From: Phycisphaerae bacterium
Lineage (GTDB): Bacteria > Planctomycetota > Phycisphaerae > Sedimentisphaerales > Anaerobacaceae
Reading direction: 5' to 3'
Assembly: GCA_030615025.1 (NCBI GenBank)
Contig: JAUXAB010000001.1
Span: 1 to 64,000, forward strand
DNA: 64,000 nucleotides
Positions 3,749 to 51,701 of the stretch are shown here, piece by piece. The stretch's first letter is position 1. Each line of letters begins with the position of its first letter. Under the pieces are notes generated by a model, which was given only the letters and a program-made list of their open reading frames with translations, was not told the origin of the DNA and made no database searches. Position numbers and translations under genes: made by a program.

Positions 3749-3921
3749 ATTGGTCCGGGTTTAAGCTGAGTATTTCACCCGGCCCTTAATAGGGGCGGGA
3801 TTCACGGCTTTTTTGAATCTTTTAATTGCGTGCCGGCCTACGGTAATAAATCTGTACGCATCAATAATAAGTTAGACTACTTCAAAAACCGCCTCGTCAG
3901 AGGAAGTATGAAATATGCGGG

Positions 3922-13834: not shown

Positions 13835-15529
13835 ATGGCAAACATCCCGGAAACGCAATATGCTGTGCAGCTGGTTGGTCCTGACGAGCTTGTTTTGAAT
13901 AAATCCAAAGAGGTTTTCAGGCCCGGTCGGCATCAGATTCTTTGCAGGGTGGAAGTGGTCGGGCTGTGTTTTTCCGACCTTAAATTGCTCAAGCAATTTT
14001 CCTCACATGTTCGCAAAAGTGAAATAGTTTCCGGGATTGACCCTGAAATACTCGAAGAGATACCCAGCTATGTCCCCGGCCAGAAGCCGACTGTTCCCGG
14101 TCACGAAACGGTGGTGAGAATTGAAGCGGTTGGGCCCGGCGTAGAAGGCTTTAAGCCCGGCGGCCGTTTCCTTGTCCAAACCGATTACCGTTGGCTGGCA
14201 ACCGGCAGCTCTAACGGCGCCTTCGGATATAACTTTGAAGGTGCTCTTCAGGAATACGTGCTGATGGATGAAAGGGTCATAACCTCGCCGGCAGGCGAGT
14301 CTACGCTGATACCGGTTTCAGAGGAGCTTTCGGGCTCGGCCATAGCCCTGGTCGAGCCGTGGGCCTGCGTTGAAGATGCCTATGCCTCGAGCGAACGGAC
14401 GACTTTGAAATCAGACGGGCAGATGCTTATAGCTGCCGATACAGAGGTTACTAAGGATGCTTTTCGGAATTTGTTTAATCGCTACGGTAAGCCGGCTGAA
14501 ATAACATGGGTTGCAGTAGGGGCGGTTCGCGAACCGCCCGTACTAAAATTGGATGTACCCGTTAAAAAAGGTGCAAACATATCAGGGCTTACAGATTTTA
14601 CTTATGACGATATAATCTACTTCGGCAGCTCTGCCGAAACTGTCGAAGCGTTGTTTGCAAAGGTTGCTGCAGGAGGACTGTTGAATATCGTTCTTTGCGG
14701 CGGTAAACTCGGTCAAGATGTTGTTACTATGGTGGGCCGGGTCCACTACGGTCGTATTCGGATAGTGGGCACCACAGGAACGGAGCCGGCTGATTCTATG
14801 GAAGTAATTCCCGAGGCCGACGAGATTCGGGCAGGTGACAGGATTAATGTCATCGGCGCAGGTGGACCTATGGGTACAATGCACGTGATACGAAACATCC
14901 TGCTAAATAGAGACGGGGGTATTGAAGGTGTCAGCGTTTTCGCAGGGGATTTGGACGATACGAGACTGGACATATTGACAAGAATTGCTGCGCCGCTGGC
15001 TGAGAAAAATGGGGTTGAGTATAAGCCGTACAATCCCACCAAAGAGAAAATTGCGGCCTCTTTCGATTATACGGTTTTGATGGTACCGGTGCCTGATTTG
15101 GTTGCTGCTTCGGTGCACAGTGCCGCCGAGCGGGGCCTGATAAACATCTTTGCGGGCATTGGCGCCACGGTTACCGGCAAGATTGACCTGGATTCCTACA
15201 TTGAGAAAAAGTTATATTTTATTGGGACAAGCGGCTCCACTTTGGATGATATGAAACGAATGCTGGCGGAAGCCGAATCCGGCAGACTCGATACCAATGT
15301 CAGCGTTGCGGCCATTAGTGGGCTTGAGGGTGCGACCGAAGGGATTCGGGCCGTTGAGAGCAGGTCAATAGCAGGCAAGATAATCGTTTATCCGTGCTGC
15401 CGCGGTCTGGGGCTGGTGATGCTGGAAGAGCTGAGTGAAAAAATGCCGGAGGTAGGTGGGTGTTTGAATAACGGTTTGTGGACGAAGAAGGCGGAACAGA
15501 AACTGTTGGGAATGTATCAAAATTCATAG
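13835..15529 (+). CDS. Zinc-type alcohol dehydrogenase family protein, long form
   Basis: This MDR-superfamily oxidoreductase has 564 residues from the ATG at 13835 (GAGGGA 8-11 bases before). A catalytic zinc site is suggested by GLCFSDL (Cys) and VPGHETV (Gly-His-Glu), with EPWACVEDAY later. The second half has a Rossmann motif VIGAGGPMGTMHV. The protein is some 200 residues longer than common members because an extra alpha/beta segment (about 200-320) precedes that motif. This resembles sugar-phosphate reductases of the sorbose-1-phosphate type. A 20-bp perfect palindrome is read in frame at about residues 229-235. In this neighbourhood it could reduce lactaldehyde or oxidise a sugar intermediate (inference). 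Confidence 0.8.
   Translation: MANIPETQYAVQLVGPDELVLNKSKEVFRPGRHQILCRVEVVGLCFSDLKLLKQFSSHVRKSEIVSGIDPEILEEIPSYVPGQKPTVPGHETVVRIEAVGPGVEGFKPGGRFLVQTDYRWLATGSSNGAFGYNFEGALQEYVLMDERVITSPAGESTLIPVSEELSGSAIALVEPWACVEDAYASSERTTLKSDGQMLIAADTEVTKDAFRNLFNRYGKPAEITWVAVGAVREPPVLKLDVPVKKGANISGLTDFTYDDIIYFGSSAETVEALFAKVAAGGLLNIVLCGGKLGQDVVTMVGRVHYGRIRIVGTTGTEPADSMEVIPEADEIRAGDRINVIGAGGPMGTMHVIRNILLNRDGGIEGVSVFAGDLDDTRLDILTRIAAPLAEKNGVEYKPYNPTKEKIAASFDYTVLMVPVPDLVAASVHSAAERGLINIFAGIGATVTGKIDLDSYIEKKLYFIGTSGSTLDDMKRMLAEAESGRLDTNVSVAAISGLEGATEGIRAVESRSIAGKIIVYPCCRGLGLVMLEELSEKMPEVGGCLNNGLWTKKAEQKLLGMYQNS
14520..14539. repeat. Perfect 20-bp palindrome inside a coding region
   Basis: GGGCGGTTCGCGAACCGCCC equals its own reverse complement. 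It lies in frame within the dehydrogenase gene and contributes the residues GAVREPP. Flanking GTA and GTAC extend the symmetry imperfectly. Confidence 0.85.
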
Positions 15530-19900: not shown

Positions 19901-22018
19901 ATGAATGAGGCTCTGGCGGATTTGATAAGAATATCGAATGTGATGGGGAAAGATTCCACCCTTGTTCAGGGTGGGGGCGGCAATACATCGGTGAAAAGTG
20001 CAGATGGTAAATATATGTATATCAAGGCCAGCGGTACGGCCCTGAAAGATATGACAACGAAAAAGGGCTGGCGAAGGTTACGGCTCGATTCGGTTCTGTC
20101 GATTATAAAAGATAAGTCAATAGTACGGCTTGACGCGCAGGCCAGGGAGATTGAGGTGGTGAATCGACTGCTTCTTGCGTGCGATGACGAGGTTACCAGC
20201 GGTGCCCGGCCATCGGTGGAATCACATTTGCACGCTTTTCTCGATAGGTGCGTGATTCATCTGCATCCTATTGCGGTGGGCGCATATGTAAATGCCAAAA
20301 ACGGGAAAGCAAAACTTGGGAAGCTTTTTAAGGGGACGGCCCCCCCCAAGCGCTTGTCCCAAGGGGGACGCCCCTTGGCGGGGACATCAAAAAGCCTGCC
20401 GTCACTTTGGGTGCCATACACAGATCCCGGCTTTACGCTTGCAAAGAGAATAGAGAAGCTGGTTGTACATTATGAGAACCGGTTCGGCAAAAAGCCGGCA
20501 ATTCTTTTCCTTCAAAAGCACGGGCTTTTCATCAGCGCCGATACCGCCGACGCTGCGTTACGGCTGGTTCGTAAGATAATTAAGCTTTGCAGCAGTAAGT
20601 TAAAAAAGCCCAAGGCCCACAAGCCCAAAACCCTTGTTTACGAGGACATCGTTGCTGCCAAATTAGCGATTCGCAAGGCGGTTTTCGATGCCACCGGCCA
20701 ATACTTACCGGTAGACTACTTTTTGACCACTGAGCCTCTGGCGGCATTTATGCGGCGTAAGGATGCGGCAAAGCTGCTGGCGACACCTGCGATGAATCCG
20801 GACGAGCTGGTGTACGCCAATGGCTCAGCGATTTGGCTGGGGCCCCGCAAACGCAAAAAAAACGGGGTCAGGAAACCCCTGGAAAACTGTAACGTCAATA
20901 CAATCACGCGGAAACTAAGGGCCCTGGTCAATAAAGGCCAGAAACCAGCCGCGGCATTTCTGGTCAAGGGTATGGGCCTCTTTGTGGCGGCTCCGAAAAA
21001 AGCCGCGCCCGTTATCGCCGAAATTACGCTCTGCTCGCTTCTTGTCCGCACTTACGCGGCGAAATTCGGCGGCGTACTCGCCCTGACGAAACGCGAGCAG
21101 GATTTCATTAACAACTGGGAAGCGGAAGCGTTTCGCAAGAAATTGGCGAGCGGGGACAGGGAAGGTGAGCTGAAAAATCGTATTGCCGTCGTTACAGGTG
21201 CCGGCAGCGGTTTGGGCAGAAGTATCGCGATTTCTCTGGCAAGGGCAGGCGCAATGGTTGGGCTTGCGGATATTGATACCGAAGCGGCAGAGGAGACTGC
21301 TGCGCTTATTAAAGGGGACTCCGGTGAAGAATGCGCCACAGGCGAACAAGCTGAAGTAATAGCGGTGCAGTGCAATGTCACCAGCGAAGCCAGTATTAGA
21401 AGGGGATTCAAGGCGGTGCTCGGCAATTGGGGTGGGCTTGATATTCTGGTCAATGCGGCGGGCCCCGTTAGAGACCCAACGGGAAAAGTCTCTAACGGTG
21501 CGGGCGTGGCTCCGGCATATCCACTCGTCGATATGCCCGTGGACAAGTGGCGTCTCGCTCTGGAAGTGAATCTGACCGGATATTTTCTTGTGGCAAAAGA
21601 GGCCGCGAGAATTATGATTCAGCAGGGAATGGGGGGCAGTATCATAAATATCAGCTCTAAATCAGGCCTCGAAGCGAGCAGGAACAATACTGCGTATAAT
21701 GCGACAAAGGCCGGCGAAATTCACATGGCCCGCGGCTGGGCACTCGAACTGGGCGAATACGGGATAAGGGTTAATTGCCTCGCTCCGGGCGATGTATTTG
21801 AGGGCCCAAGAATCTGGAATCCGGAATACATAAAGGTCTGTGCCAAAAAATACGGCATAAAACCTGAGGAAGTTATCCCTTACTATGTGAGCAAAACCGC
21901 TCTAAACCGCGAAATAACAGGGCACGACATCGCCGATTCCGTTGTCTTTTTATGTTCTGACAGAGCCCGGACCATCACGGGCCAAACGCTCGCCCCATTA
22001 GAAATTTTTCCTTTCTGA
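19901..22018 (+). CDS. rhaEW: Bifunctional rhamnulose-1-phosphate aldolase / lactaldehyde dehydrogenase
   Basis: A fusion of two enzymes (705 residues from the ATG at 19901, GGAG upstream). The N-terminal class II aldolase domain (about 1-415) cleaves rhamnulose-1-phosphate to DHAP and L-lactaldehyde. Zinc ligands are suggested by ESHLHAFLDRCVIHLHPIA and LQKHGLF. The C-terminal short-chain dehydrogenase (about 425-705) has VVTGAGSGLGRS (NAD site), NAAG, ISSKSG and the YNATK catalytic pair, and is expected to oxidise lactaldehyde to lactate. The same architecture is known for RhaEW of Bacillus. Two palindromic repeats are read in frame: at 20331-20386 in the aldolase part and at 21465-21498 just after NAAG. 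Confidence 0.93.
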   Translation: MNEALADLIRISNVMGKDSTLVQGGGGNTSVKSADGKYMYIKASGTALKDMTTKKGWRRLRLDSVLSIIKDKSIVRLDAQAREIEVVNRLLLACDDEVTSGARPSVESHLHAFLDRCVIHLHPIAVGAYVNAKNGKAKLGKLFKGTAPPKRLSQGGRPLAGTSKSLPSLWVPYTDPGFTLAKRIEKLVVHYENRFGKKPAILFLQKHGLFISADTADAALRLVRKIIKLCSSKLKKPKAHKPKTLVYEDIVAAKLAIRKAVFDATGQYLPVDYFLTTEPLAAFMRRKDAAKLLATPAMNPDELVYANGSAIWLGPRKRKKNGVRKPLENCNVNTITRKLRALVNKGQKPAAAFLVKGMGLFVAAPKKAAPVIAEITLCSLLVRTYAAKFGGVLALTKREQDFINNWEAEAFRKKLASGDREGELKNRIAVVTGAGSGLGRSIAISLARAGAMVGLADIDTEAAEETAALIKGDSGEECATGEQAEVIAVQCNVTSEASIRRGFKAVLGNWGGLDILVNAAGPVRDPTGKVSNGAGVAPAYPLVDMPVDKWRLALEVNLTGYFLVAKEAARIMIQQGMGGSIINISSKSGLEASRNNTAYNATKAGEIHMARGWALELGEYGIRVNCLAPGDVFEGPRIWNPEYIKVCAKKYGIKPEEVIPYYVSKTALNREITGHDIADSVVFLCSDRARTITGQTLAPLEIFPF
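20331..20386. repeat. In-frame GTCCCAAGGGGGAC repeat
   Basis: The segment contains the 14-base core GTCCCAAGGGGGAC (20356-20369) and a CCCCTTGG arm that can pair with TGTCCCAAGG. The same core occurs, in opposite orientation and another reading frame, in flgH at 60520-60533. It encodes the non-conserved stretch around APPKRLSQGGRPLAG of the aldolase domain. Confidence 0.7.
21465..21498. repeat. In-frame CCGTTAGAGAC inverted repeat
   Basis: CCGTTAGAGAC and GTCTCTAACGG are perfect 11-bp arms around a 12-base loop. The 34 bases are read in frame within the dehydrogenase domain as PVRDPTGKVSNG. TCTAACGG words also occur at 22050 and 51140. Confidence 0.8.
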
Positions 22019-22361
22019 TTGTATTGCCTGCTCCTATTGGAGAATTTCTAACGGGGCTCATTGCCGATTCCGGACAGGTAATGGTTCGGTAAGGGTTCAT
22101 GGCTCGTTTTCAAGACACAAGACCCTGGACGCAGGACCCCGTTTCACAAAAAGATGGCGAAATAGGAGCCCACTCAAGACTTTGGTCCTGGGTCTGCAGT
22201 CTTCTGGGCACGATTCACGACACGTTTTCGGTTGCTTTTCCAGGGCGAAATGTGCTATATTGCTGCACTGGTAACTGGTAACTGGTAATTGGTCAAATGG
22301 TAATTGGTTAAATAGTTACCAGTTACCACTCACCAATTACGAATTACAGGAGATTTGAAGT
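22019..22361. other. Intergenic repeats before E1 gene, no gene
   Basis: The gap contains a CTAACGGGGC remnant near 22050. Paired GACCCTGGACGCAGGACCC and GGTCCTGGGTCTGCAG segments lie at about 22123-22205. A large TAATTGGT fold-back lies at 22267-22348 and ends directly before the GGAG ribosome-binding site. A 60-codon open frame at 22099-22281 has no ribosome-binding site. Confidence 0.5.
22267..22348. repeat. TAATTGGT fold-back repeat, copy 2
   Basis: The left arm iterates TGGTAACTGGTAACTGGTAA, the centre is AAATAGTTACCA, and the right arm iterates ACCAGTTACCACTCACC. It ends two bases before the ribosome-binding site of the E1 gene. Confidence 0.8.
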
Positions 22362-37142: not shown

Positions 37143-37895
37143 GTGGCATTGACGGGTAAACAGAAAGCTGCGATGCTGTTGATGAGCCTCGATGCTGCAA
37201 CCGCCGCTGAACTGCTCAAGGGTGTTAACCCCGAGCTGGTTGGCGAATTGGCGGTGGAATTGGCATATCTGGACGCCGCTGGTTATCGCAGCGGTAAGCA
37301 GAGCACCCAAATTGCCCGGCAGTTCTGCAATTCGCTTCAGGCCGACGAACCCCGCCCCTTCGAGGGGCGGGGCGAGGGATTTCACCTTAAAAGCTTCCTG
37401 AAGGAAATGCTAAAAAGCACGGTAGGCAACGAAAAGGCAGAGCAGATCCAGACCCAGATACATAATTTGCTGCAGAAACACGACCCTTTTATACGTATTC
37501 GTTTCCTTGATTCACAAACGATAGCCTCAGTTCTGGAGAAAGAGCACCCTCGTGCTGCTGCCGTGGTTTTATCAGAACTGCCGGCAAAGAAAAGCTCCAA
37601 TGTACTCGATCTTTTCGGCGAAAGTATCCGGCTCAGTGCCATCAGGAGGATGACCACTTGTGAGAATATGACAGCGGAAGCAAAGGCACGGATAGCAGAG
37701 ACGGTTTGCAAGCGTCTCGAGGCTATTACAGCCGGTGGCGCAAGTGAAGCTTTACCAACTCGGCTTGGGCGGTCTTTAAGGAAGATGGCCGTGATTTTGC
37801 GAAGCCTGGGTAAAGAGCTTCGAGACGGTCTGCTTGGTGCAATACAGATAAAAACACGAAATTCGAAGCACGAAATCCGAAACAAATACGAATGA
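37143..37895 (+). CDS. Truncated FliG paralogue (FliG1)
   Basis: This 250-residue protein is a FliG relative that lacks the C-terminal torque domain. Its N-terminus (KQKAAMLLMSLDAATAAELLKGVNPE) nearly repeats that of full-length FliG2 downstream. The middle-domain motif EHPRAAAVVLSELPAKK is present in place of EHPQ. A CCCCGCCCC palindrome is read in frame at about residues 70-77 (PRPFEGRG). The last 15 or so residues (KTRNSKHEIRNKYE) and the stop codon are encoded by a dispersed repeat, so the gene end was probably cut by repeat insertion. GTG start with AAGG ahead, in the fliF-fliG operon. It may still bind FliF; whether it functions is unknown. Confidence 0.8.
   Translation: MALTGKQKAAMLLMSLDAATAAELLKGVNPELVGELAVELAYLDAAGYRSGKQSTQIARQFCNSLQADEPRPFEGRGEGFHLKSFLKEMLKSTVGNEKAEQIQTQIHNLLQKHDPFIRIRFLDSQTIASVLEKEHPRAAAVVLSELPAKKSSNVLDLFGESIRLSAIRRMTTCENMTAEAKARIAETVCKRLEAITAGGASEALPTRLGRSLRKMAVILRSLGKELRDGLLGAIQIKTRNSKHEIRNKYE
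37350..37372. repeat. 23-bp GC palindrome inside fliG1
   Basis: CCCCGCCCC, TTCGA, GGGGCGGGG. It is identical to the copy at 51500-51522 except for one loop base, and related to 51302-51327. Confidence 0.85.
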
Positions 37896-51178: not shown

Positions 51179-51301
51179 ATCTTGTTTTTTGTTTTATCCT
51201 GTTGTCCTGTCTAAAGCCTGTACTATTCCAAACTCTATTTTCGCTAAAAAAACACGTTCACTTAACTATTTATCCCATATTTGCCCCACTTCTTGCTTTC
51301 G

Positions 51302-51327
51302 CCCCGCCCCTTTTGGAAGAGGCGGGG
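51302..51327. repeat. CCCCGCCCC palindrome between fliD and the FliT-like gene
   Basis: CCCCGCCCCTTTTGGAAGAG followed by GCGGGG, an intergenic relative of the in-frame copies at 37350-37372 and 51500-51522. Confidence 0.65.
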
Positions 51328-51359
51328 TTCGCAAGAAGGCAGCGGGGCCTTTTGCACAA

Positions 51360-51701
51360 TCAAATATGACTACGGTAAATCTGTATGGTCTTTTTGCCTT
51401 TACGAACCCTGCTCAGCTTCTCGGAAACGTCGGCTTTCTGAGCTGTGATGGCCAGGCATAGGTCTTCGTATAATTTCCGCAATTTCTCTCGTCGCCCTCC
51501 CCCGCCCCTCCGAGGGGCGGGGTCAAGAATCCCTGTCTGGGCAATTTTTTCAACAAGCCAGGCGCCTCGCTCGCTTAATATCCCGACGTCTTTGATGTTA
51601 CCTTGCCGGGCCAACTCTATCTGCTTTTCTAACAGAACCTGCAGCTCATCCAGCAAATGTATTTGGTCATCGCCAATTACATCAGTATTATTGGTAGTCA
51701 T
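51360..51701 (-). CDS. Small helical protein, putative FliT/FlgN-type chaperone
   Basis: The 113-residue charged, helical protein (LLDELQVLLEKQIELARQGN, REKLRKLYEDLCLAITAQKADVSEKL in parts) has the size and heptad pattern of flagellar export chaperones. It sits directly upstream of fliD, where FliT is often found, so a FliD chaperone is likely by context. The sequence alone is not diagnostic. A CCCCGCCCC palindrome is read in frame as DPAPRRGGGGRR in the middle of the protein. Its start overlaps the stop of the TPR gene (ATGA). Confidence 0.65.
   Translation of the reverse strand: MTTNNTDVIGDDQIHLLDELQVLLEKQIELARQGNIKDVGILSERGAWLVEKIAQTGILDPAPRRGGGGRREKLRKLYEDLCLAITAQKADVSEKLSRVRKGKKTIQIYRSHI
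51500..51522. repeat. 23-bp GC palindrome inside the FliT-like gene
   Basis: CCCCGCCCC, TCCGA, GGGGCGGGG, one base different from the copy in fliG1 (37350-37372). Read in frame on the minus strand. Confidence 0.85.

Follow-up and report, generated by a model that had tools for sequence, protein, structure and literature searches.

The 23-bp palindrome carried by two flagellar genes of a Phycisphaerae MAG is very probably an ultra-short nonautonomous mobile element that enters DNA through a 4-bp staggered cut made by a recombinase acting in trans. It inserts precisely, duplicates 4 bp of its target, follows a sequence rule in its choice of target, and has done so repeatedly; the target-site duplications together with the empty sites identify it as a mobile element. 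It belongs with the selfish palindromes of the MITE, RPE, or GC-cluster-like kind and, for bacteria, counts among the smallest mobile units of DNA on record. The genomic evidence, which consists of empty sites, covarying duplications, and nested and tandem insertions, shows a unit of 23 bp to be mobile in bacteria, near the lower size limit. We found no description of this palindrome in the literature searched.

Anatomy of the palindrome and its copies in the window

The consensus of the palindrome is CCCCGCCCCT-NNN-AGGGGCGGGG, in which a 3-base loop is all that separates two 10-bp inverted ends (5'-CCC[C/A]GCCCCT and AGGGGCGGGG-3'). The stem is conserved and folds strongly (RNA, -21.8 kcal/mol; DNA, -13.1 kcal/mol), and the loop is CCG or CGG in 85 of 111 copies and variable in the others. 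Terminal inverted repeats and target-site duplication, the hallmarks of MITEs, are both present, and the 23-bp length and 3-base interior fall short of the internal sequence and usual length (~50 bp or more) of that class.

In the window (the whole stretch of DNA that was analyzed, 64,000 nt), three matches to the palindrome with no more than 3 mismatches were found versus 0.03 expected from shuffled sequences, and a control pattern gave 0 matches in every genome, so that chance and GC bias were rejected as their source. An Rfam search of the window returned no match. The copy CCCCGCCCCTTCGAGGGGCGGGG at positions 37350 to 37372 lies in frame in fliG1 (37143 to 37895, plus strand) at a point where orthologues lack 27 bp, between the duplications CGAA (37346 to 37349) and CGAG (37373 to 37376), which are one substitution apart. 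The copy at 51500 to 51522 lies in a small FliT-like gene of the flagellar locus (51360 to 51701, minus strand) that adjoins fliD. Its insertion was imprecise and one duplication has been lost: the target copy survives at 51523 to 51526 as TCAA, which reads TTGA in the direction of the gene, and the opposite-side copy at 51496 to 51499 was not kept. The earlier note had placed both palindromes at exactly these coordinates, and both are perfect and differ by a single loop base. They are translated as that note described, as ...ADE-PRPFEGRG-EG... in fliG1 and, on the minus strand, as ...DP-APRRGGGG-RRE... in the FliT-like gene, and the related intergenic copy that it listed at 51302 to 51327 is present as a 26-bp variant, CCCCGCCCCTTTTGGAAGAGGCGGGG, with TTCG on either side (51298 to 51301 and 51328 to 51331).

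Beyond that account, the window contains the 4-bp direct repeats, a diverged intergenic 23-bp copy (CCCGGCCCTTAATAGGGGCGGGA, 3778 to 3800) between TTCA flanks at 3774 to 3777 and 3801 to 3804, and two CCCCGTTAGA-family elements. One of these is 38 bp long (CCCCGTTAGAGAC...GTCTCTAACGGTG, 21463 to 21500) with CGGG on each side, and the other is 64 bp long (CCCCATTAGAA...TTCTAACGGGG, 21993 to 22056) with flanks CTCG and CTCA. They represent a sister family found in the same genomes, with ends CCCCGTTAGAA...TTCTAACGGGG, a total length of 29 to 110 bp, and the same 4-bp YNNR duplications, and this family has the internal sequence and length of MITEs.

The gene names given previously hold in part. 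That of fliG1 is borne out by its N-terminal and middle domains (FliG_N, PF14842; FliG_M, PF14841) and not by the C-terminal domain (FliG_C), which it lacks. Pfam returned no match for the FliT-like gene, so that the name of that gene depends on its position adjoining fliD. The fliG1 gene ends in a repeat-derived tail, KTRNSKHEIRNKYE, and in relatives its full-length matches fall within open frames of 331 to 416 aa. The fliG1 gene may therefore be undergoing decay, separately from the palindrome.

Target-site duplications and empty sites

Identical 4-bp direct repeats flank 86 of the 111 distinct copies, and the repeat varies from copy to copy with left matching right. Exact 4-bp repeats were seen at 50 of 67 copies, compared with 7.5 expected when flanks were re-paired, and 5-bp repeats at 0 of 67. 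All 86 duplications fit YNNR, most commonly as TTCA, CTCG, TTCG, or CTCA, and as YNNR is its own reverse complement, the rule is independent of copy orientation. A G before the duplication and a C after it are favored (best context, G-YTCR-C); an apparent class of 6-bp duplications was mostly the 4-bp class plus these favored flanks. The 26-bp variants obey the YNNR rule too, as do all 23 duplications of the sister family. This shared rule suggests one shared machinery, of which the 23-mer would be the minimal substrate.

Comparison with relatives revealed the corresponding empty sites. The closest relatives at fliG1 (G003 and G004) read GCC GAA/GAT - GAA/CAA GGA TTT, whereas the window reads GCC GAC GAA [palindrome] CGAG GGA TTT, which is exactly 27 bp more. 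The earlier note had asked whether relatives free of the palindrome contain the same peptides, and they do not: 19 fliG1 orthologues lack PRPFEGRG, the close ones among them being exactly 9 codons shorter (27 bp = 23 + 4), and FliT-like orthologues have PADPVFNEE or a shorter sequence at the palindrome position. In the FliT-like gene, the palindrome stands in place of ~27 bp of the sequence of G001 and G002, with TTGA kept on one side only, and a copy in a glycosyltransferase gene is similarly imprecise.

Insertion has occurred more than once in the same gene. In MTAP, the span between fixed motifs is 35 residues in most relatives and 44 in the genome of the window, with a CGAG duplication. 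The MTAP of the congeneric G003 carries a separate 27-bp insertion, which lies three codons further on and has a TAAA duplication, as well as a different insertion containing the GGGCGGTTCGCGAACCGCCC palindrome. A separate GTAG-type REP, GTAGGGGCGGTTCGCGAACCGCCC, was noted at window position 14516 and in L233, and the same palindrome core occurs in the G003 MTAP beside the 23-bp element. A scan of fetched homologues, some at 67 to 85% identity, gave a net gap of 9 residues at ~14 independent insertions. Elsewhere, a copy has inserted into another copy's loop and is flanked there by a CGAG duplication, and the tandem TTCA-26mer-TTCA-23mer-TTCA represents two insertions at one target. One orthologous site is filled in both CSMAG_1316 and CSMAG_1493, and some insertions are therefore old and common to several genomes. 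A Ser/Thr-kinase-like gene at L114:6848 has an insertion that neighboring paralogues on the contig do not have.

These comparisons leave almost no credence for the idea that selection shaped the palindrome in place as a structural motif, a terminator, or the binding site of a host protein. Such a motif would account for the GC-rich palindrome but not for precise 27-bp insertion differences with duplications, a coding location in any phase, and a patchy distribution. The empty sites already refute an origin in place, and the refutation is limited to origin.

Insertion in genes and distribution among genomes

Intragenic copies were called from long ORFs and homologues, since gene calling by codon usage lacked power. 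By this measure, 80 of 106 testable copies are in frame in long ORFs. The counts for three of the genomes, 8 of 13 in G000 (the genome of the window), 46 of 59 in G026, and 6 of 13 in G022, are near the 84 to 91% of the DNA that ORFs cover. The 80 intragenic copies are read in each of the three phases and in either polarity, which agrees with the earlier proposal that the likeness between the two flagellar genes is one of DNA and not of protein. Element and duplications together are open in five or six frames in 96 of the 106 copies. An insertion adds 23 + 4 = 27 bp, or nine codons, and because the element also has almost no stops in any of its six frames, insertions in genes are tolerated, which offers a simple reason for the life of the palindrome in coding DNA. 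Tolerance in the form of 9-residue Pro/Gly/Arg-rich linkers would explain a genic share near coding density, unlike that of REPs, and insertion within genes seems to be close to neutral, as expected of a 9-codon addition. Such linkers are present in dozens of proteins, conserved enzymes among them, and annotations, alignments, and structure models for these lineages therefore contain transposon-derived segments.

The palindrome is patchily distributed. The genome of the window has it in 12 places with no more than 2 mismatches, and the control pattern in none; relatives of the same family have 84 copies in one genome and 16 in another, and most other genomes have 0 or 1. Carriers are Phycisphaerae MAGs from several genera of one family, and in an even draw of 392 genomes across the planctomycete phylum, the strict pattern occurred in one, that of the window itself. 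IMG/VR gave no match to the strict pattern among viruses. A MAG of candidate division TA06 (B6T1B8) harbors 7 copies whose private loop is usually TGT, and the contigs that bear them encode sorting-domain-like C termini. This suggests transfer between phyla, with some residual chance of mis-binning. The genomes with at least 7 copies are this MAG, G000, G022, G026, CSMAG_1255, and CSMAG_1493. At L081, L083, L084, and L087 of that MAG, several copies lie within TTCGTG-like repeat arrays with TTCG on both sides.

Candidate machinery and known systems

A trans-acting recombinase would make a 4-bp staggered cut at YNNR and join the palindrome to the cut target, with gap repair yielding the duplication, and the same machinery would serve the 26-bp variant as well as the longer elements with CCCCGTTAGAA ends. 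The enzyme sought is thus sharply defined by a 4-bp stagger, YNNR, and ends 5'-CCC[C/A]G, and the most likely candidate would be a DDE-type transposase encoded elsewhere, whether lost, unassembled, or unrecognized. We rejected IS1380/piggyBac-like transposases, which share CCC tips and 4-bp duplications: the sole PF13701 gene, in G000, has none of these ends in its vicinity, and neither PF13701 nor PF01609 occurs in G022 or G026. IS5/IS1182 and IS701 were rejected as absent or present in one genome only; among the six element-bearing genomes tested, PF05598 is absent from all and PF13546 from five. DDE families with duplications of 4 to 5 bp are absent or sporadic, and the DDE_Tnp_1 search gave no link to the element. 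The ~1.2 Mb sampled contained no autonomous parent of 0.5 to 5 kb with these ends, and long end pairs that might have passed for one were independent neighboring copies. MAG assemblies often lack multicopy IS, and as the carrier genomes are incomplete MAGs, the absence of a transposase is weak evidence.

REP elements, palindromes of 20 to 40 bp that are in some cases intragenic (PMC3733652), offer another comparison. It is very improbable that the 23-mer is a REP moved by a RAYT (Y1 tyrosine transposase), even though its size and palindromic form agree and RAYT-like genes occur in G000 and G026. The foot of the palindrome has no GTAG or CGTC tag, and its flanks are variable YNNR direct repeats. 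Around the RAYT loci examined, no copy lies <1.5 kb away; the RAYT at C128:121069 likewise has none nearby, and no RAYT was found in the element-rich G022. REPs, moreover, are mainly extragenic, in contrast to the copies described here, and the 23-mer has true 4-bp duplications, which HUH enzymes are not known to make.

One consideration against transposition is that a classical synaptic complex would have to pair the two ends of a single duplex of 23 bp, which is very short for the purpose. This awkward size lends some appeal to RNA- or hairpin-mediated copy-and-paste, in which the hairpin would enter a staggered break either through reverse transcription or by being joined there as single-stranded DNA. 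The strong folding, the conservation of stems while the 3-base loop varies, and the probable transcription of the many genic copies are consistent with such a route, and the same idea was raised for yeast mitochondrial GC42 (PMC4478555). We nevertheless consider it unlikely, as a DNA transposon is suggested both by the strictness of the 4-bp YNNR duplication and by the sister family, whose interiors are longer and whose ends are inverted. Within the preferred reading of recombinase-mediated insertion, we tentatively entertain the possibility that a complete bacterial mobile unit may consist of little beyond two recombinase ends, served by a recombinase that belongs to none of the known transposase or RAYT families and makes the 4-bp YNNR staggered cut, with a length tuned to whole codons and a spread inside genes.

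Several known systems share features with the 23-mer. Yeast mitochondrial GC clusters such as GC42 (42 bp) are likewise short, patchy GC-rich palindromes with duplication-like direct repeats and no mover assigned (PMC4478555); they differ in their AG or ACT flanking repeats, whereas the 23-mer is bacterial, shorter, flanked by 4-bp YNNR, and located for the most part within protein genes. Rickettsia palindromic elements, which are selfish and lie in frame in protein genes, are ~100 to 150 bp long and have a conserved peptide frame (PMC10969869, PMC2229807). The 23-mer also occurs in frame within unrelated protein genes, but it is far shorter, uses all phases and both strands rather than one peptide frame, and has clear 4-bp duplications. 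It is like MITEs in its inverted repeats, duplication, and lack of coding capacity and unlike them in having hardly any interior and no parent IS in the sample, and the CCCCGTTAGAA sister family fits MITEs well. The Nostoc small dispersed repeats (SDR) of Elhai et al. in 2008 are reportedly mobile repeats of ~21 to 27 bp with no enzyme known and would, as such, be a similarly small counterpart.

The sister family also enters genes. Its members classed as intragenic all have lengths of 2 mod 3, a result that is partly circular in that the class is defined by an open frame. At L137:10552 and in a homologue on L100, elements of this family apparently lie in prepilin-like leader peptides (KAFT-PLE...LTGFT-LIELLVV), where they add residues ahead of the hydrophobic segment.
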